A stretch of DNA of 64,000 bases from Romeriopsis navalis LEGE 11480 (GTDB lineage Bacteria; Cyanobacteriota; Cyanobacteriia; Leptolyngbyales; Leptolyngbyaceae): positions 62,001 to 126,000 of the forward strand of contig NZ_JADEXQ010000003.1 in NCBI RefSeq assembly GCF_015207035.1. Direction: 5' to 3'. Each line of letters opens with the position of its first letter. Position 1 is the first letter of the stretch. Below are positions 48,991 through 59,014 of this stretch, piece after piece. The position numbers and the translations under genes are program-made. The notes under the pieces are model-generated. The model was not told where the DNA came from. It did not search any database and worked only from the letters and a program-made list of their open reading frames with translations.

Positions 48991-50664
48991 TTACGGTTTC
49001 AGCCCGTGGCTCTTGCCAATCACCCACGATCGCCGGAAAAACTTCGACAGCGACGACTCCTCCAGGGATAGATAGATTGGCCGACCATGGGGGCAAGTAT
49101 GGGGATTTTGCGTTTGTTGCCATTGGTCAAGTAAGTGCTGCATTTCTAAATGGCTCATGGGGGTACCATTCCGAATGGCGCTGCGACAAGCGATCGCCAC
49201 CTGAGCCGATTGTAAATCACCGCCTTGGCTCAGCTCCAAAATGGCGGCGGCTTTTTCGGGATGCTCACTCAGGAGTTTGGGCAATGAGCGGATGGCCCAA
49301 AGGTGGTTCCCAAACTCACTCACCTCGAGGCCAATGCGTTCGAGCTGTTCCACCTGTGCCCCGGATAAATTTTGCACAATTAGCGGGACGGTCAGCGGAA
49401 TGACTTCCCAGCGATCGCGAATTTGTTCATACAGCACCCGTTCATGGGCGATATGCTGTTCGACTAACCAAATTCCGGCGGCATGTTCCGCCACGATATA
49501 CATCTGACTGGCTTGGGCAATCGCCCGGAGTGGCAGCAATGGTTTATGTGCAACGGTCGAATTTGCCGGGTTGACTTGTCGATCGGCATAGTAGCCGGCC
49601 TCCGATTCCGCGACTTTTAGTAATTCTTGGGTTCGACTATTGCCGTAGCTATCAGCCAATCGATCGACTGTTAGCTTAAGAATTTCGTCGAGACCAAATT
49701 TGACTTGATTTTGCCATACTTCTAACTGTTGGAGATATAGCTCTGCCTTGGCCGGATGTCGATTCCAATCAACCGCTTCTGGGTTGACTTTGAGATGCAC
49801 AATGCAAATGGGAAAACGATCGCGCGGTATCGTGCGGCGCAAATGCTGTAAGACTGTTTGTTCTAATTCGGGGAGCACTACAAATCGCCCATTGACGGCA
49901 ATCTTGACCCAGTCGGGGCGATGACGGTGGGCCCGATCGGGTAGCCCTAATAGCAGTGAGAGTTCACCTCCGGTGACTTGATTGTGCAACTCGACTAAAT
50001 CGTTGGCTTGCAGATCGCGAATAAACTGTGGCAATACTTGCTTGGCTGTACTGCCGGGCCAGATGTGTATCCAGGGGCGATGATTTTGTTCAATCAGCCA
50101 AGTCACCTGGGGATGGGCTAACGCCATTTCTTGAATAATTGCCTGGACGGCTTTGAGCTGTTGTGGCAGGGGTGGGAGGCTTTGCCGCCGGGATTCCCAA
50201 GTACTAAATAAATTTTCGACAATGACCGTGGTGCCCGGAGCGATCGGCGCCACTTCTGTGCGAATCGCCTCCCCCCGCGAATCGTAATTCACCTGCCAAC
50301 CGGTTTCACCGCCAACACAACTCAGCAGCGTTAAGTCCGCGAGTTGGGCAATACTCTGGAGCGCTTCCCCCCGAAATCCCAGACTTTCAACGGCGAGTAA
50401 ATCCTGTCGATCGCGAATTTTGCTAGTTGTGTGGGCGATGGCGGCTTGGAGCAGATCATCCAAGGCCATCCCACGGCCATTATCGGTGACATGGATACGC
50501 CATTGATCGGGCCATAGCCGCATGGTGATACGGGTAGCGCCAGCATCTAGCGCATTTTCGGCCAATTCACGCACGACTGCAGCCAAGGAGTCAATCACTT
50601 CTCCAGCGGCAATCAGGTTAATTACCTCGATGGGTAGGGGTTGAATGGCAGTCTGCATGAGCAT
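48991..50664 (-). CDS. mutL: DNA mismatch repair protein MutL
   Basis: About 557 residues. The ATPase part has IAAGEVIDSLAAVVRELAENALDAG, TDNGRGM, HTTSKI and ESLGFRGEAL. The C-terminal dimerisation region carries WLVEQHIAHERVLYEQI, related to the metal-binding endonuclease motif (D/E)QHA-x2-E-x4-E, and CPHGRPIY. So it is the nicking-type MutL, working with MutS. ATG 50664 is used; ATG 50658 or a GTG at 50682 are also possible. Confidence 0.95.
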   Translation of the reverse strand: MLMQTAIQPLPIEVINLIAAGEVIDSLAAVVRELAENALDAGATRITMRLWPDQWRIHVTDNGRGMALDDLLQAAIAHTTSKIRDRQDLLAVESLGFRGEALQSIAQLADLTLLSCVGGETGWQVNYDSRGEAIRTEVAPIAPGTTVIVENLFSTWESRRQSLPPLPQQLKAVQAIIQEMALAHPQVTWLIEQNHRPWIHIWPGSTAKQVLPQFIRDLQANDLVELHNQVTGGELSLLLGLPDRAHRHRPDWVKIAVNGRFVVLPELEQTVLQHLRRTIPRDRFPICIVHLKVNPEAVDWNRHPAKAELYLQQLEVWQNQVKFGLDEILKLTVDRLADSYGNSRTQELLKVAESEAGYYADRQVNPANSTVAHKPLLPLRAIAQASQMYIVAEHAAGIWLVEQHIAHERVLYEQIRDRWEVIPLTVPLIVQNLSGAQVEQLERIGLEVSEFGNHLWAIRSLPKLLSEHPEKAAAILELSQGGDLQSAQVAIACRSAIRNGTPMSHLEMQHLLDQWQQTQNPHTCPHGRPIYLSLEESSLSKFFRRSWVIGKSHGLKP

Positions 50665-50734
50665 TAGTTTAACATCGATCACTTAAACGCATGTGGCTGT
50701 ACCAATCGGCTGAATGCAACGGCCAAAACTCAAA

Positions 50735-52012
50735 CTAAGCAGCCGCGAGGCGTTCTTGGCGATAGCGCCAGGCAATTAATGACCAGAGAATCAGCATGAG
50801 TAAACCATCGGAAATCAGGGTGGAAATCACCGCGCCATGCCAAGAGAAACGGGGAATCAGCCAGAGATTCAACAGCACATTCAACACGGCAATGCTGATT
50901 TGCACCACACTACGCTGAAACTGTAAATCAGCGCCGGAAAGGGCATCCGCCGCGATGTAGTGTAATCCCTTTAAGAAGACTAATGGCGCTAACCATTGCA
51001 GCACTTGCACCGATGCTGCGTATTTTTCACCTAAAATCCAGGGCACGATCGGTGAGCAAAACAGTAATCCGACGCCAGCAATAAATCCATAGCCCGCCAT
51101 GATTGGGAATAACCCCTTTGCCACTTTGACACTACCGCGAATTCCCGTCGCACCCTGCTTAAAGAACTTGGCATAGGCCACGGTGAGAATTGATTTGAGT
51201 GGCACAAAGGCCATATCAATTAACCGGTAGGCGGCGGCATACATCCCGGTTGCTTCTAAGGTCGATAGCCTTGCCAGCATGGTTTTATCAATGTCGTTGT
51301 AGACCGTTTGGGCGGAGTAGCCAACGGCAAAGTAACTGCCCTCTTGGACTTCACCTTTGAGCCGTTTCAGGGCAAGTTGGGGTTTGCCGAGTTCGTAGCT
51401 GACGCAGAGAATGGCGATTAATCCGGCTGAACCAATACTCAACAGGCTAACTAACGCCCAATCGATGGCGGTTGGTTGGGCAATGAGTTTGACCATCATC
51501 AATGCCGCTACTGCCCGAATAATGTGGGGTAGCAGGGTGAACTGCGCGGTCCGTTGAATTTTTTGGACGGATTGGTAGGCGTTCGCCGTTAAGTCGAGGG
51601 CGCGGCCCCCGAGTAAGTTGGTCATGGCCGCAAACAACAGCAGCCAAGGAGAAATTGTTTTGGGTAAAATCCATGCCCCCACGATTTCGAGGCCGATAAT
51701 CAAAAGGCTGGCTGAGACAATCATCAGCCATAGACCATTGCCCCAATAGGTCGAAAATGTTGAACGATCGCGGGCGACATTTTTGACGAGGAGATTCCCC
51801 GCCCCCAGGGTGGAGAAGGGGGCCACAATATCCACAAATGCTGCGGCACCGACAAATGCCCCATATTCCTTGGGGCCTAGCGCTTGGGTGACGGTGATAA
51901 AGTAGACCCCTTGTAAAACTAAGCGCAATCCATGACTGGACATCATCCACAGGGTTTGGCGGAGTTCGGGACGTTTCCAGAAAGGCAATTTGGGGGCGTG
52001 CGGATCGCTCAT
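50735..52012 (-). CDS. polysaccharide flippase (Wzx/MOP superfamily)
   Basis: A 425-residue protein with about twelve hydrophobic segments, starting after a short basic lead with GLRLVLQGVYFITVTQALGPKEYG, a motif of Wzx/RfbX-type lipid-linked oligosaccharide flippases, and later FVPLKSILTVAYAKFFK. Downstream of the GT2 gene by 49 bp on the same strand, so part of the exopolysaccharide cluster. Confidence 0.88.
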   Translation of the reverse strand: MSDPHAPKLPFWKRPELRQTLWMMSSHGLRLVLQGVYFITVTQALGPKEYGAFVGAAAFVDIVAPFSTLGAGNLLVKNVARDRSTFSTYWGNGLWLMIVSASLLIIGLEIVGAWILPKTISPWLLLFAAMTNLLGGRALDLTANAYQSVQKIQRTAQFTLLPHIIRAVAALMMVKLIAQPTAIDWALVSLLSIGSAGLIAILCVSYELGKPQLALKRLKGEVQEGSYFAVGYSAQTVYNDIDKTMLARLSTLEATGMYAAAYRLIDMAFVPLKSILTVAYAKFFKQGATGIRGSVKVAKGLFPIMAGYGFIAGVGLLFCSPIVPWILGEKYAASVQVLQWLAPLVFLKGLHYIAADALSGADLQFQRSVVQISIAVLNVLLNLWLIPRFSWHGAVISTLISDGLLMLILWSLIAWRYRQERLAAA

Positions 52013-52061
52013 AGTCGGTGATGTGAATGATGAATCATATGTTTGGTCGCAAGATTATCCC

Positions 52062-53000
52062 CTAGCGGGCTGTTCCCAAGGCGCGGCGAATTGCGAATTG
52101 GGCCACTGGTGCGAGCTTAATTGATAATAAAGTGACGAGGGATTTGGGATCTTGGCCGAAAATTCGCCAGTCTTGCTGCCATGCCTGATCAAGAAATTGG
52201 TTGGCTTGGTCGGCATTGCCCATGGTGACTGCCATACGCCCGAGGTAGCGGTACATATAGGCCCGCGCTGTGGGCATGATCATCGCCGTTGCGGCGGGCG
52301 ATCGTTGTTGTGCCATTTGCAAGACCTGCTCGTGCGTCTGTTGCATTTGTGCGAGGTTAAACGAGAGCCCGGAAGGGCGGACGCGATAGTAACTGAGAAT
52401 CCGTCGATCGCGGTGGAACTGCCAGGTTTGGGCGCTGGCGATCCGCAACCACAGATCTAAATCTTCAACACTGGGTAATGCTTCGTCAAATTGTCCCACT
52501 TCGTCAAATACGAGGCGACGTAGCATTGCATTGGAGCCGTGCACAATAAAGTTTTTGCACATCAGCGCTGGCAATGGATCAGGGTGGACGGGTTTACCGC
52601 TGATCTTGAGCCACGTCGGCGTGCCATCATCGCGCATGGCTTGGGAGGCACCGTAGACAATTCCAACAGCGGGGTTGGCTTCTAATGTCGCAACATGTGC
52701 CGCTAATTTATGGGGTAGATAAACATCATCGCCATCAAGTAAAGCAATATATTCGCTGTTACTATAATTGATGCCAAAGTTACGGGCGGAGGATAGGCCA
52801 CCGTTCGGTTTCTGTAAAAGCTGAAATCGACTGTCCCGTTTGACGAATTGCTCGGCGATTGCCGCTGTATCGTCGGTCGAACCATCATCGACGATCAACG
52901 CCTCAAAGTCATGATAAGTCTGCAGAATCAGAGACTCTAGGGCCGCCGTCAAATAATCACGGACATTGTAGGCAGGAATAACAACGCTAACTTTTGGCAT
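52062..53000 (-). CDS. family 2 glycosyltransferase
   Basis: From ATG at 53000 about 312 residues: VSVVIPAYNVRDYLTAALES, LIVDDGSTDDTA, GGLSSARNFGI, LLDGDDVYLPHK (the D-x-D motif) and ED-like EDLDLWLRIA; a typical GT2 inverting transferase. A hydrophobic C-terminal segment is not evident, so it is cytosolic or peripheral. Cluster neighbours are the WecG-type transferase upstream (59-bp gap) and the flippase downstream. Confidence 0.93.
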   Translation of the reverse strand: MPKVSVVIPAYNVRDYLTAALESLILQTYHDFEALIVDDGSTDDTAAIAEQFVKRDSRFQLLQKPNGGLSSARNFGINYSNSEYIALLDGDDVYLPHKLAAHVATLEANPAVGIVYGASQAMRDDGTPTWLKISGKPVHPDPLPALMCKNFIVHGSNAMLRRLVFDEVGQFDEALPSVEDLDLWLRIASAQTWQFHRDRRILSYYRVRPSGLSFNLAQMQQTHEQVLQMAQQRSPAATAMIMPTARAYMYRYLGRMAVTMGNADQANQFLDQAWQQDWRIFGQDPKSLVTLLSIKLAPVAQFAIRRALGTAR

Positions 53001-53059
53001 ATTAAATCGGGATTGATGATATGGGCTGAGGCCAAGGCATGATGACGAATGCAAAAGGA

Positions 53060-54391
53060 TTATGACTGCGGCCGATTGTTGCTAATGCTGGTGACTTGTT
53101 CCACTAGGAAGTCAACGGTCTGTTGCCCGATTAGGCCCCGGCCCGCCAGGATTGACCCGAGTCGCATGCCGGTTAATTGCTGCTCGGCGAGGGCGGCTTG
53201 GACATCATCTTCCGTGACTAAGCCCGCTTCTACTAGGTATTCGCCAAACTTACGATAGGCCCGGCTATGCTGTTGGCTAATCCGCTGCTGGATTTGCTGC
53301 ACGAGGAAGTCAACGGTTTGCTGCTGTACCCACCCTTTTCCGGCCAAGATACTACCCAAGCGAATACCGCTTTCACCTTGTTCAATTAAAGCCGCGTCAA
53401 CCTGGGCTTGGGTGACGAGGCCCGCTTCGATTAAGTATCGTCCAATCAACTGTGGCCGTTCGGTTTCGAGGGATTGTTGGCCATCTAGGTAAGCCGCATT
53501 CATCAATAAATCAGCCTGATTAATTTTGGTCGCCCAAAACAGGTGATTCGAAGCGGAGTTGGCAAATTTAGCGAGGCCCACCTGCAATAGGAATGCGGGG
53601 TTGCCGAGCAAATAGCGCGAGGCTAGCCGTTTGGGTTCTTTGACTAAGCGATAGGCCCATTCCAATTCCCGATCCGCAATCCATTGCGGACAATCTTGAA
53701 CCATCCCGGCCATTCGATCGATCACGGCCCCCCCGACCAGAATTGCATTGACATGCAATCGATCACGGTAGCGTTGGACCCAGCTTTCCTGGATCGGCAT
53801 CCCCATCCCCACAATTAAGATATGGGGCTTAAATTCGTTAATTGTGGCGACGATTTCGTCGTTTAGTGCTAAGTCGTTACGATCGAAGTAGCCATGCTGT
53901 CCCGCGAAAGTGCTATTGGGATACTGTTGCTGCAGTTGAGCAATCGCACCGTCGAGATATTCGGGTTTAGCACCGAGTAGAAAAACGCGCCGAGATTCTT
54001 GGTTGCAGGTGGCTAGGAGCCTTGGCATCAGTTCGGTGTAGGAGACGCGATACTCGCGGGGAATCGTTAATCCTAACCAGCGTAGGCCCCGCAGGATGCC
54101 AGCGCCATCACAATGGACCAGTTCTGACTGCTGTAAAAACGAATAAAACCACGGCAGTTGCATCGAGAGATTGAACGCGTGGGTGTTGTAATTGGCAACG
54201 GTAATACGGCGATTTTGTGCGCAAGCGAGATCAATGCTCTTGAGGATCTCGAGCGTTGTCATCAGGGTGATACGCCGGCCAAATAAGTGAATACATAGAT
54301 TGGATAAATGCTGATCCGGTGCTTTTTGGTCATCGGCAATGAGTTCGGGCAGCGGCCCAAACGTTCCCGATAAATTATTTGTACTTTGCAT
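53060..54391 (-). CDS. WecG/TagA/CpsF glycosyltransferase fused to two MshEN-like modules
   Basis: 443 residues; ATG at 54391 follows GGGAG. Residues to about 280 are a WecG/TagA-type transferase: TVANYNTHAFNLSMQ, LVHCDGAGILRGLRWLG, RVFLLGAKPEYLDGA and GMGMPIQESWVQRYRD, then REYR-like AVIDRMAGMV. The C-terminus (315-443) has two copies of a module: LIGRYLIEAGLVTQAQVDAA..EQ, five residues, RLGSILAGKGW..., then KFGEYLVEAGLVTEDDVQAA..EQ, five residues, RLGSILAGRGL. This fits the c-di-GMP-binding MshEN pattern (tandem 24-residue motifs with 5-residue spacer) known from type II secretion/pilus ATPases. In its cluster, this suggests second-messenger control of exopolysaccharide synthesis, by inference. 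Confidence 0.85.
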   Translation of the reverse strand: MQSTNNLSGTFGPLPELIADDQKAPDQHLSNLCIHLFGRRITLMTTLEILKSIDLACAQNRRITVANYNTHAFNLSMQLPWFYSFLQQSELVHCDGAGILRGLRWLGLTIPREYRVSYTELMPRLLATCNQESRRVFLLGAKPEYLDGAIAQLQQQYPNSTFAGQHGYFDRNDLALNDEIVATINEFKPHILIVGMGMPIQESWVQRYRDRLHVNAILVGGAVIDRMAGMVQDCPQWIADRELEWAYRLVKEPKRLASRYLLGNPAFLLQVGLAKFANSASNHLFWATKINQADLLMNAAYLDGQQSLETERPQLIGRYLIEAGLVTQAQVDAALIEQGESGIRLGSILAGKGWVQQQTVDFLVQQIQQRISQQHSRAYRKFGEYLVEAGLVTEDDVQAALAEQQLTGMRLGSILAGRGLIGQQTVDFLVEQVTSISNNRPQS

Positions 54392-54717
54392 CAATGGCGC
54401 TCCCCTGACATTGAAAATAGCAGTTAGACGCTGACAACTTGCCCGCCATAGGCAGGTGTTGTCGAGGATTGGCTGCTAAGTTGGTAGAACTGACGTGCGT
54501 CTCTCAAAAGCGGCGAATAAATTTCGATTAAACGAAATTAACGATTTTGAGATTAGTTCTAGAATGCCCGCAAACTGATTGTCCAACACAATCAAAGCTC
54601 GGTAATTGTGATGATTAATTGCCTCAAAATTAACTCTTTTCACAAAAAAACTGCGTTATATCGGCGAGCCAATTACGCATCCATTTTCATCCGGCTAACG
54701 CTCCGGGGATGGTCGCC
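54392..54717. other. intergenic region inside the exopolysaccharide cluster
   Basis: Contains a small hairpin AATTTCG...CGAAATT (54520-54526 with 54533-54539) and no coding frame. The WecG gene probably has its own promoter here. Confidence 0.5.
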
Positions 54718-56769
54718 CTAACTGACCTGGGAATTTTGCGGTGAGGATGTTGTGGCGACCGTAATAATCTCGTCGGACATGGCTTTTTCTACGGGACTTT
54801 CGGTGCCATTGAGCACGAGGCCGGCCCATGCGATATTTTGATGTCGGGCCACTTGGGCGATCGCTTTATTCACCATAAAACGTTCACTGCGTCCCGGTCG
54901 AACCACCCAGAGAATGTGCTTAGCGATCGTCGCTAACAGAATGGATTCGCCGGAGCTACAAATCCCTGGACCATCAATCAATACATAATCGTAATGCTGT
55001 TCCATTTGGGCTTGGTTGAGCGCATGTTCGAAGCCCCCGCGCAGCACAAATTCCATGCCTTGAGTGGCGGACGTGGTGAATGCGAGTAAATCAATTCCAG
55101 GCATGACCGGAACGGCGACATGTGCTGGGTTGGGAGTGGGTTGTTCCAGCTTTTTACTAAGCGTATGCTGGCGCACATCGGCATCAACGACCAGCACTTG
55201 AAAGCCTAAGGTTTTGAGCGCGATGGCTAAGCCAATTGTCACAGTCGTTTTGCCTTCGTGACGATTGGCACTGCTGATGAACAGACGTTTGTTTTCGAGT
55301 CGCATCATACTAATGCTTGATGCCAGACTTTGCAGTTCCATGCCGTTGAAGAAGTCGCTCCAGAGCATCGACCAAGTGGATTTCATGACCGGCAGACTGC
55401 CAATTACGGGGATCTTTGACATTTGGACATCGGTCGGACTGAGCAGTGGATTACGGCTTTCGCGCAGGAGCGTAAGGGCTACACTGCCAAGGACTGACGC
55501 TAAAACGGCACCCATTAAAATGGGGATTTTTTTCGAGCCAGTGGGTTTCGGATTGACTTTTGGGCGATCGAGCACCTGGACACTTGGGTAGTTGCTGAAG
55601 GTATTGACCCGCGTCTCTTGCACTTTGGCGACCAAACCGTTGTAGACCCCTTCCGAAATTTCGTACTGGCGCTGTAATTCTTGGAGCGTCGCTTGTTGTT
55701 GGGGGAGCGCTTGGAGGCTACGATTGAGCTGCTGGACACGGTTTTGGAGCTGGCGGGCTTGCTGTTGACTCGCATTGGCTTGGCTTTCGGCCACAACGAG
55801 CTGTTGCATCAGTTCGCCTAAGTTCAGCCCAGTGGCGGGATTCACCCCTGGGGCGTTGGCCCCGGCCGCTGCGACATATTGTTGGATCTGGGCCGTAATT
55901 TCAGCTCGTTCGGTCAGGAGGCTTTGGACATTGGGGGTATTGTCTTGGTAGAGGCTGCGGGCTTGGGCCAGTTGAAATTCGACCTCGGCTAATTTTTGGC
56001 GCGCATAAACATAATCCGATCGCTCATTCAGCCGGAGTGATTGAATCGCTTGGGTCGGCGTCATGCCGAGACGGCCGGCAAGCACGCGGACCTGGGCCAT
56101 TTGGGCTTTGGCTTTGGCTAAGATGTCAGCTTGGGTGACGGTTAAGCTGTTGATGCCAACGACGAGTTGTTTTGTTTGCTCTTCGCTTTGAACGATGCCA
56201 TTGGCTTTTTTAAACGTAGTGAGTTTCGCTTGGGCAATTTCGAGGTTGCGCTTGGCTTTATCCATTTCGATTTGGACAAACATGGCTCGCTGGGTCGCAT
56301 CGTCTTGACGCAGATAATTGAGTCGCTGCTGGAAAACTTGAACGAGCGCTTCAGCCCGCTTTTGGGCGATTTTCTGATTGCGGCCAGTCACCTTGACTGA
56401 AAAGATGGTGGATGATTCCTCGGGCATTACCTTGAAGAACCCTTTGAAGCGGCTCAGACTAAAATCGGCATCTTTTTCGGGGTCCACGGCTTTTAACGCC
56501 CCCATCGTGTCATCGCTTGTGACAATCGACGCGAGGACATTAAGCGGATTCACCTGCTGGCTAAAAAAGGCATTGCTATCACTGACTTGACCGAGGTCAC
56601 CGAGGTTGGCGCTGAGTTTGCCGGTGTTGGCCGACAGGATAAACGAGGCATTGGCCATCCATATTGGTTTGCTCCGCGCTAAAGCGCCGGCGGCGAGAAT
56701 CGTTAGACTCAGATTCCATGCAAGGAGCGGCTTCCAGTGCCTCAAAATAATGGTCAGCGATCGATTCAT
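54718..56769 (-). CDS. Wzc-type polysaccharide co-polymerase/BY-kinase-like protein
   Basis: From ATG at 56769 about 683 residues. An N-terminal Wzz domain with membrane helix (LLAWNLSLTILAAGALARSK), a long coiled coil (about 200-420), a second membrane helix (IPILMGAVLASVLGSVALTLL) after a Pro-containing linker, then a cytosolic BY-kinase ATPase: Walker A HEGKTTVT, A' VLVVDADVR, Walker B YVLIDGPG. The C-terminal tail (TESPVEKAMSDEIITVATT) has no tyrosine cluster. The frame continues to a GTG at 57075, but this extension looks unlike the family. Exopolysaccharide export control. Confidence 0.88.
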   Translation of the reverse strand: MNRSLTIILRHWKPLLAWNLSLTILAAGALARSKPIWMANASFILSANTGKLSANLGDLGQVSDSNAFFSQQVNPLNVLASIVTSDDTMGALKAVDPEKDADFSLSRFKGFFKVMPEESSTIFSVKVTGRNQKIAQKRAEALVQVFQQRLNYLRQDDATQRAMFVQIEMDKAKRNLEIAQAKLTTFKKANGIVQSEEQTKQLVVGINSLTVTQADILAKAKAQMAQVRVLAGRLGMTPTQAIQSLRLNERSDYVYARQKLAEVEFQLAQARSLYQDNTPNVQSLLTERAEITAQIQQYVAAAGANAPGVNPATGLNLGELMQQLVVAESQANASQQQARQLQNRVQQLNRSLQALPQQQATLQELQRQYEISEGVYNGLVAKVQETRVNTFSNYPSVQVLDRPKVNPKPTGSKKIPILMGAVLASVLGSVALTLLRESRNPLLSPTDVQMSKIPVIGSLPVMKSTWSMLWSDFFNGMELQSLASSISMMRLENKRLFISSANRHEGKTTVTIGLAIALKTLGFQVLVVDADVRQHTLSKKLEQPTPNPAHVAVPVMPGIDLLAFTTSATQGMEFVLRGGFEHALNQAQMEQHYDYVLIDGPGICSSGESILLATIAKHILWVVRPGRSERFMVNKAIAQVARHQNIAWAGLVLNGTESPVEKAMSDEIITVATTSSPQNSQVS

Positions 56770-57169
56770 GGGGGATGCTTGGTAAAGATGCCTGAACAGC
56801 TTTAATAGATGATCGGGAGTTGTAAAATCATCGTTGGGAGCCGATGATTGATGCGTTGTAGGTGTTTCACTTAGCTTGCCCAGACCCTTCACAAAGTAAC
56901 GAATCCGGGGCTTGAATCGGAAGAAAAGGGATTTAATTCTCCCAAGCCCATGATTGCTGCGATATTCTAATCCCTGATGACAAGAAGCAACTGCGTGGTT
57001 TCCCTGGATCAACGGCGTGATTTTGGCTAACGCCGATGGTGGAGTTGTGTATTTATCGCTATAAAATCTCGACACACGAGGAAATCCGACGTAGACTGAT
57101 TTTTTACATATATTGCATCCGCGAATACAACAGGTATTCCACTTAGCAGCATCTGAGAGGTTATTGAGC
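56770..57169. other. divergent region between the Wzc-type gene and ilvB
   Basis: Holds the promoters of both genes. The upstream extension of the Wzc frame (to GTG 57075) lies in it; I read it as non-coding but cannot exclude it. Confidence 0.45.
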
Positions 57170-59014
57170 GTGCAACTTCAGCAGCAGCCACCGGCAGTTC
57201 AAGAGCAAAAGGTTTCCGGCGCGTACGCCCTGCTTGATAGCCTCAAGCGCCACGGAGTCGAGCACATCTTTGGTTATCCGGGTGGGGCGATTCTGCCGAT
57301 TTACGATGAGCTCTACAAATTTGAAGAGCGGGGCGAGTTGCAGCATTTCTTAGTCCGTCATGAGCAAGGTGCGGTGCATGCCGCGGATGGCTATGCGCGG
57401 GCCACGGGTAAAGTGGGCGTCTGTTTTGGTACGTCGGGTCCGGGTGCAACGAATTTGGTCACGGGAATTGCGACTGCGCATATGGATTCGATTCCATTGG
57501 TGGTGATTACCGGTCAGGTTCCACGGGTGATGATTGGGACGGATGGTTTCCAAGAGACGGATATTTGGGGCATTACCCTGCCGGTGGTGAAGCATTCCTA
57601 TGTGGTGCGCGATCCTAAGGAAATTCCGCGCATTGTGGCGGAAGCGTTTTATATTGCGGCCACGGGTCGACCCGGGCCGGTGTTGATCGATATTCCCAAG
57701 GACGTGGGACTCGAAGAAATTGACTATTTGCCGATCGCGCCTGGTTCGGTCAAGTTGCCTGGCTATCGTCCGACGGTCAAGGGTAATCCGCGCAAAATCA
57801 CCCAGGCAATTGACCTGATTAAGTCGGCCCAAAAACCCTTGCTCTATGTTGGGGGTGGGGCCATTTCGGCGGCGGCCCAGGACCAGGTGCATCAGTTGGC
57901 GGAGCGATTCCAAATTCCGGTGACCACGACATTGATGGGGATTGGTGCGTTTGATGAGCATCACCCATTGGCCGTGGGCATGTTGGGGATGCATGGTACG
58001 GCCTATGCCAACTTCGCGGTGACTGAATGTGACTTGTTGATTGCGGTGGGTGCGCGGTTTGACGATCGTGTTGTCGGCAAACTGGATAAATTTGCGGCCC
58101 ATGCGCAGGTGATTCATATCGATATTGACCCGGCGGAAGTTTCCAAGGTGCGTAAACCGGATGTGCCGATCGTTGGGGATGTGAAAGAGGTGCTGGTTGA
58201 TCTCCTGTCTCGCTGTGCGAATGCGGGGGAGAACGCCGCGGCCCAGACGGAAGATTGGCGCAATCGGGTGGCGCGTTGGAAGCAGGATTATCCTTTAGAT
58301 GTGCCACTCTATGACGATATGATGTCGCCGCAGCAGGTGATTGCAGAAGTTGGCCGTCAGGCCCCGGATGCCTGCTATGCCACGGATGTGGGACAACATC
58401 AGATGTGGTCGGCGCAATTGCTAAAAAATGGTCCTCGGCGTTGGCTTTCCAGTGCGGGGCTGGGGACGATGGGCTATGGGATGCCGGCAGCGATGGGGGC
58501 AAAGGTCGGTGTGGGTGATGAGCAAGTGATCTGTATTAGTGGTGATGCCAGTATTCAGATGAATATTCAGGAGCTCGGGACGCTGAGTCAGTATGGGATT
58601 GCCGCGAAGACGGTGATTATCAACAATGGTTGGCAGGGGATGGTGCGTCAGTGGCAGCAGTCATTCTACGGAGAGCGTTATTCTTCCTCCCATATGGCGC
58701 CATCGATGCCCGATTTTGTGAAGCTGGCGGAGGCGTACGGCGTTAAGGGTATGGTCGTGACCAAGCAGGAAGACTTGACCCAGGCGATCGCCGAAATGTT
58801 GGCCCACGATGGCCCGGTCTTAATGGATGTGCATGTGCGCAAGGATGAGAACTGCTATCCGATGGTGGCACCTGGTAAAGCTAATTCGGAAATGCTGGGT
58901 TTGCCACAGCATAAGCAGCTTGAGCGGGCGATGGAAACAGTGACTTGTGGGAGTTGTGGGGCCGATAACGAACAGACCCATAAATTCTGTTCCGACTGCG
59001 GCGCTAAACTCTAG
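57170..59014 (+). CDS. ilvB: acetolactate synthase large subunit with C-terminal zinc ribbon
   Basis: From GTG at 57170 (GAGG about ten bases upstream) 614 residues. The thiamine-diphosphate enzyme is complete: [14 protein letters not shown], the catalytic Glu in [45 protein letters not shown], the metal-binding [12 protein letters not shown] and [13 protein letters not shown]. It condenses pyruvate (or 2-ketobutyrate) for Val, Leu and Ile. The last 22 residues (CGSCGADN ... [10 protein letters not shown], Cys 593, 596, 607, 610) form a zinc ribbon not seen in standard IlvB. The longer frame to 57113 begins at a TTG. Confidence 0.96.

Follow-up and report, generated by a model that had tools for sequence, protein, structure and literature searches.

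Identity of the fused protein

Does cyclic di-GMP (c-di-GMP) act directly on a glycosyltransferase of exopolysaccharide assembly in Romeriopsis navalis LEGE 11480? The question is raised by one gene in the window analyzed here (the whole 64,000-nt stretch, from contig NZ_JADEXQ010000003.1), which a sequence-only reading had taken to encode a WecG/TagA glycosyltransferase fused to two MshEN-like modules, with possible tuning of the enzyme by c-di-GMP. The gene and its parts are as follows.

53060..54391, minus strand: WecG/TagA (GT26) glycosyltransferase with two MshEN-type modules, 443 aa, ATG start
53573..54286, minus strand: GT26 catalytic region and appendage, residues 36-273; D95 corresponds to TagA D65 and N67 to TagA T37
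53558..53671, minus strand: C-terminal appendage equivalent, residues 241-278; R248/R255/R259 align with TagA R214/R221/R224
53450..53557, minus strand: linker from appendage to module 1, residues 279-314 (36 residues); pLDDT below 50 at 306-311
53294..53449, minus strand: MshEN-type module 1, residues 315-366, with motif I at 315-338, spacer GESGI and motif II at 344-366; 49.3 bits
53252..53293, minus strand: inter-module stretch, residues 367-380, modelled within one continuous helix 357-388
53096..53251, minus strand: MshEN-type module 2, residues 381-432, with motif I at 381-404, spacer QLTGM and motif II at 410-432; 54.5 bits

The minus-strand frame runs from an ATG at 54391 to a stop at 53060-53062, and the plus strand over 53060-54391 is stop-rich. 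The ATG, with GGGGAG upstream, looks like the start; a TTG at 54392-54394 (minus strand), directly before it, also opens the frame. A search for RNA elements and riboswitches in window positions 50000-58000 returned none, and a promoter and terminator scan gave no signal above that of shuffled sequences.

The WecG/TagA assignment was borne out by both profile and fold. The 443-aa protein matched PF03808 (171 bits against a cut-off of 27.4, E = 2e-50) and TIGR00696 (121.8 bits against a cut-off of 69), residues 36-273 matched the sequence of TagA 7mpk (E = 1.6e-22), and the predicted model matched the GT-E fold of the same structure (Foldseek, E = 1.5e-13, TMt = 0.92), TagA being the only protein matched in the whole-protein Foldseek search. 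By alignment, D95 corresponds to the TagA catalytic base D65 and is invariant across the aligned relatives, and the likewise conserved R248, R255 and R259 correspond to TagA R214, R221 and R224. Given this conservation of the base and the appendage arginines, the enzyme looks catalytically competent. Thr37 of the TagA donor pocket is replaced by N67, an Asn common to the cyanobacterial clade with few exceptions; we did not take it to exclude GT26 because profile, fold, catalytic base and appendage all agree with that family. The TagA appendage consists of three helices that must fold onto the active site to complete it, contributing an arginine that is essential, and the same appendage provides membrane docking; dimeric TagA is inactive and the membrane-bound monomer is the active form, with appendage folding and membrane insertion as the proposed switch (PMC6493773). 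The window protein shares the fold, the catalytic Asp and the appendage with its three Arg with TagA/TarA and WecG. In contrast to TagA, which ends at the appendage, it continues for about 165 further residues that hold the two MshEN modules.

Two MshEN-type modules in the C-terminal tail

The tail contains four related motifs in two pairs (residues 315-338 with 344-366, and 381-404 with 410-432), as had been read from the sequence; in both pairs, the first motif is 24 residues long, ends in EQ and is followed by exactly five residues and then RLGSILAG(K/R)G. A loose motif pattern matched the protein exactly four times, at these four motifs, and 20,000 shuffles of the protein yielded a mean of 0.003 matches and a maximum of 1. 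Chance repetition was ruled out by these shuffles and by the profile scores. The MshEN-profile search suggested for the tail gave two matches to NCBIfam NF053729 ('cyclic di-GMP-binding domain, MshE-related'; protein E = 1.1e-25), and at the DNA level each copy alone exceeded the curated cut-off of 38 bits (49.3 for module 1 and 54.5 for module 2). The Pfam search of the 443-aa protein returned no MshEN match, which is uninformative because the canonical V. cholerae MshE motif is also without a Pfam match. Weak Pfam matches to Phage_holin_10, DUF4388 and DeaD_dimer overlap the MshEN helices and were judged to be cross-matches.

The full AlphaFold2 model (33-row alignment, mean pLDDT 86, tail 74-92) has four helices per module (311-322, 328-341, 345-351 and one starting at 357, and their repeat), and helix 357-388 is continuous, ending module 1 and opening module 2. 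For the tail modelled alone (pLDDT 75), the best solved match was MshE with c-di-GMP (5htl; Foldseek probability 1.00, 1.4 A over 53 columns), and c-di-GMP-bound PilF-GSPIIB was also among the best. These MshE and PilF-GSPIIB matches covered 51-54 columns at 1.2-2.2 A, with probabilities of 0.87-1.0 and E-values of 0.2-2.5. With so short an aligned unit, the E-values of the best matches (0.2-0.8) are weak, and confidence in the tail model is intermediate. The MshEN assignment is thus upheld by two profile matches above cut-off and by the fold match to 5htl. The unit resembles the MshE N-domain (5htl; PMC5013675) in its two motifs, five-residue spacer and four helices, and differs from it in lacking MshEN_C, in the tandem arrangement of two units, in the replaced leading Arg and in the altered motif II.

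Genomic context of the fused gene

Three neighbouring genes bear on the pathway.

54718..57075, minus strand: Wzc-like polysaccharide co-polymerase with a P-loop kinase-like domain; upstream neighbour, in the same position in relatives
52062..53000, minus strand: GT2 glycosyltransferase; downstream neighbour, 55-60% identical in relatives and adjoining the gene in all compact fused loci
50735..52012, minus strand: Wzx-like flippase (Polysacc_synt); after the GT2 gene in reading order

The gene thus stands in an operon with the reading order Wzc-like, WecG-MshEN, GT2 and Wzx-like flippase. The order Wzc-like/WecG-MshEN/GT2 is kept in the relatives L004, L005, L006, L009, L048, L167 and L172, with Wzx also present in the L009 and L172 loci, and gene order is looser in relatives without modules. 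No MshEN-like module was found in the Wzc-like neighbour itself. Its C-terminus is without an obvious tyrosine cluster and its P-loop region is present, so that it is perhaps a co-polymerase without classical autophosphorylation. A plus-strand gene at 57113-59014 encodes an acetolactate synthase-like protein with a C-terminal zinc-ribbon (13240, E = 4.8e-5), a tail that is apparently unusual for such an enzyme.

Potential of the modules to bind c-di-GMP

The key c-di-GMP contacts of MshE are R9, L10, G11, L25, L29 and Q32, together with R38, L39, G40, L54, L58 and Q61; binding is lost when a Gly is changed, weakened more than 10-fold by a single change at a conserved hydrophobic residue, and weakened at most about fivefold by changes of Arg or Gln (PMC5013675). 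Both window modules retain G11, G18, Q32, R38, L39, G40 and G47. The leading triplets of motif I are LIG in module 1 and KFG in module 2, with R9 replaced by Leu or Lys and L10 by Ile or Phe, and L25 is Val in the window modules. Motif I has 24 residues with VxxxLxxQ. Motif II, read without gaps, has V/V at L54/L58 and Ile or Val at Q61; read as one residue shorter, it has 23 residues with TxxxLxxQ (T/L/Q) in the PilF register, exactly the length found in PilF-GSPIIB. Module 2 and PilF-GSPIIB align in phmmer with no gap, their terminal Gln residues paired.

The LIG and KFG triplets in place of a leading RLG, and a second motif one residue short of the consensus (23 residues if its Gln is kept), had been raised as caveats in the sequence-only reading, and both descriptions are correct. 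Their weight is reduced by Thermus PilF GSPIIB (8pdk; mutants 8pe0, 8pfa, 9gl5 and 9glg), because its entries titled as c-di-GMP-bound include one with Leu at the leading position and its motif II has 23 residues, although this domain belongs to a pilus ATPase. According to the PDB titles, K167L, K167R, Q190E and Q218E are all c-di-GMP-bound; the R9 equivalent in bound PilF-GSPIIB is therefore Lys (wild type) or Leu (K167L), and Gln is changed to Glu at either motif end. Because wild-type PilF has Lys and K167L is titled as bound, we did not take Leu or Lys at this position to exclude MshEN, and on the same precedents the altered R9 and the short motif II do not exclude binding. These sequence comparisons make it rather probable that the two tail modules bind c-di-GMP, and an affinity lower than that of canonical modules is quite possible. 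The ligand is probably made in the host, since the genome encodes 26 GGDEF domains.

MshEN-type domains also serve docking, as in the N-domain of PilB with PilZ, and the N-domain of XpsE has lost nucleotide binding. The modules might accordingly have lost c-di-GMP binding and now dock the enzyme to the Wzc-like co-polymerase, the GT2 partner or a PilZ-type adaptor. The altered R9 and LxxxLxxQ positions would fit such a role, as would the tight linkage to the Wzc-like and GT2 genes and the tail's match to a solved structure of the PilB N-terminal domain with PilZ (7lkm). However, the c-di-GMP-contacting G11 and G40 are all kept in the window protein, in the two-module relative G470 and in L005/L063, and drift is not expected to spare exactly these residues; G470 moreover keeps RLG in all four motifs.

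Distribution and selection of the modules

We surveyed 390 sampled genomes of the class with a profile of the WecG tail plus module, scoring ten candidates per genome, and found full-span WecG-MshEN fusions in at least 12 genomes from 7 families. The strict whole-protein search of the phylum gave 6 genomes, because window-like sequence is rare, and a further survey with NF053729 contributed little more. The spread of the fusion, for which a survey had been proposed, is thus recurrent across families within the cyanobacteria, the group covered. Among plasmid records, the best matches were all WecG cores, at 28-36%, and no record covered 80% of the query; the nearest WecG-core relatives, on genome contigs, are cyanobacterial proteins at 42-60% identity with zero, one or two modules. 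NCBIfam recognized both domains in all ten fusion proteins checked, with the module above cut-off in eight; it scored below the NF053729 cut-off in L168 (28 bits) and L008 (27 bits).

On the tree, module-carrying proteins occur in the window's clade, in the clade of L162, L163, L164 and L171, and in L170, which makes at least three WecG lineages, and the carrier and non-carrier labels change seven times, at least five of these changes being forced by starred branches. Early-branching rows of the window's clade carry modules, with the root uncertain. Modules are degenerate, truncated or absent in Nostocales and some Leptolyngbya-like rows, and within the window's WecG clade in L007, L008, L010, L011, L025, L027 and L030; since many members of the clade are without a module, the enzyme itself can do without it. 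The two copies in the window protein are 64% identical, as are the two copies in G470 (64%); between the window copies, synonymous sites are saturated. Neither protein's modules exceed 57% identity to the other compared modules, suggesting that the two doublings arose by separate tandem duplications.

Several further proteins came to light in these comparisons. L162, L163 and L171, from a WecG lineage other than the window's, each have two modules with the canonical Gln at the motif ends. The reading frame is altered in L009 and L048/L166, perhaps through assembly errors in metagenome bins. In two Calothrix genomes, the window-type WecG gene is directly preceded by another WecG paralogue of divergent sequence (L026:3615- and L029:6186-), and the roughly 550-aa open frames of L078, L084 and L085, with the WecG domain at the C-terminal end, represent another WecG fusion. 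A single MshEN-type module also occurs in a small stand-alone protein of cyanobacteria (about 140-190 aa), where it lies close to the N-terminus and is followed by a Pro/Gln-rich middle; in L002:532-1023 (G000:C41) and L124 this protein has a C-terminal WVG ending; matches of this size occur in the window's family and in many other sampled families, and it is a possible general c-di-GMP receptor.

Between species, the modules evolve under purifying selection (dN/dS 0.04-0.11 in five module pairs of relatives; 0.04-0.07 in single-module relatives). The modules of L004/L006 and L168/L169 have a dN/dS of about 0.05 despite replacement of c-di-GMP-contacting glycines (KLS, PLS or PLR in L004/L006; G to R in motif II, PFR, in L168/L169). 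This shows that module function is kept under selection, which need not be nucleotide binding in every lineage. In these four proteins, constraint without the binding glycines argues for a nucleotide-independent role, and it is the main support for docking; with the glycines retained as described above, we consider docking with lost binding a rather unlikely account of the window protein. The frequency of degenerate, truncated or missing modules in the same clade could also mean that the window modules are vestigial, decaying remains of a former sensor with no present role. This is very improbable, given that both modules score far above cut-off with the signature glycines kept, that the two copies remain as similar as they are though synonymous sites are saturated, and that single-module relatives are so strongly constrained.

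Proposed control of the transferase

Our preferred reading, which draws on sequence, the predicted model and analogy and which we hold to be reasonably likely, is that the protein is a peripheral membrane GT26 of exopolysaccharide assembly tuned by c-di-GMP through the modules behind its appendage. The enzyme would be a cytoplasmic protein attached to the membrane surface, adding a sugar to a polyprenol-linked intermediate of a putative Wzx/Wzc-dependent exopolysaccharide. Its tail would bind c-di-GMP, up to one molecule per MshEN module. Because the modules hang directly behind the appendage, on the 36-residue linker, a ligand-induced change in them would be well placed to bias a TagA-type switch: binding may shift the appendage's balance between monomer and dimer or its docking on the membrane, which would switch the transferase on, as in NfrB. 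NfrB of E. coli, a GT2-MshEN protein for which control by c-di-GMP is established, binds the nucleotide with a Kd of 1 uM, both domains being needed (PMC8669469).

By this analogy, activation is the likelier direction. The modules could conversely bind c-di-GMP and localize or oligomerize the enzyme (at the pole, at the pilus or in an inactive dimer), in which case c-di-GMP would repress it. The inactivity of dimeric TagA (PMC6493773) would suit repression, and the two four-helix modules, with helix 357-388 as their connection, could link one chain to another. However, in the known cases c-di-GMP activates exopolysaccharide synthases (NfrB, PMC8669469; cellulose synthase), and we regard repression as improbable.

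More tentatively than c-di-GMP control of this one enzyme, we suggest that such proteins form a GT-E (GT26) effector class, in which one or two c-di-GMP-binding MshEN_N modules gate the appendage that completes the active site and docks on the membrane, with direct and possibly cooperative control of an early exopolysaccharide step. As part of this suggestion, and equally tentatively, the modules may have been acquired or retained by several WecG lineages of cyanobacteria, with repeated losses. The hypothesis of c-di-GMP input at the transferase is directly testable, because modules occur naturally in intact, glycine-less and truncated forms and are absent from some relatives.

Relation to known systems and significance

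Glycosyltransferase-MshEN fusions were already noted by Wang et al. 2016 (PMC5013675). Like the window protein, NfrB combines a glycosyltransferase with a C-terminal MshEN module in an exopolysaccharide setting, and its NCBIfam model picks up the window tail (E = 9e-8), far below the model cut-off. It differs in being a processive GT2 held by transmembrane helices, whereas the window protein lacks a GT2 catalytic domain and is a GT26 WecG with two short MshEN_N modules in a Wzx/Wzc-type cluster. An EpsG-type tyrosine kinase (TIGR03029) likewise has an MshEN-like piece on an exopolysaccharide-assembly protein; it is a weak cross-match only, to a different enzyme in which the MshEN-like stretch is N-terminal. 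The earlier view of the glycosyltransferase as an unusual carrier therefore holds in part: a GT26/WecG carrier appears undescribed, but glycosyltransferase carriers are known (PMC5013675; NfrB, PMC8669469) and the fusion recurs across cyanobacterial families. In the openly accessible papers searched, the single one to mention WecG together with MshEN was that on NfrB, and we found no earlier description of a GT26 MshEN carrier or of the doubling. What thus appears to be new is that the carrier is a GT26 enzyme, that the module is doubled and that the fusion recurs in cyanobacteria; the MshEN domain and c-di-GMP-controlled glycosyltransferases were already known.

To our knowledge, cyanobacteria have many c-di-GMP enzymes and few proven receptors, and regulation of the GT-E fold has so far been known only through membrane docking. 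Two of the proven cyanobacterial receptors are the PilZ domain of cellulose synthase (PMC5871770) and CdgR (PMC13075795). If the proposed mechanism is true, it would provide an allosteric handle on the GT-E fold, and c-di-GMP, the signal for biofilm settling, may directly throttle one sugar-adding step. Light- and surface-driven c-di-GMP signalling would then be tied to exopolysaccharide and to mat and sheath formation at a glycosyltransferase of the Wzx/Wzc pathway.
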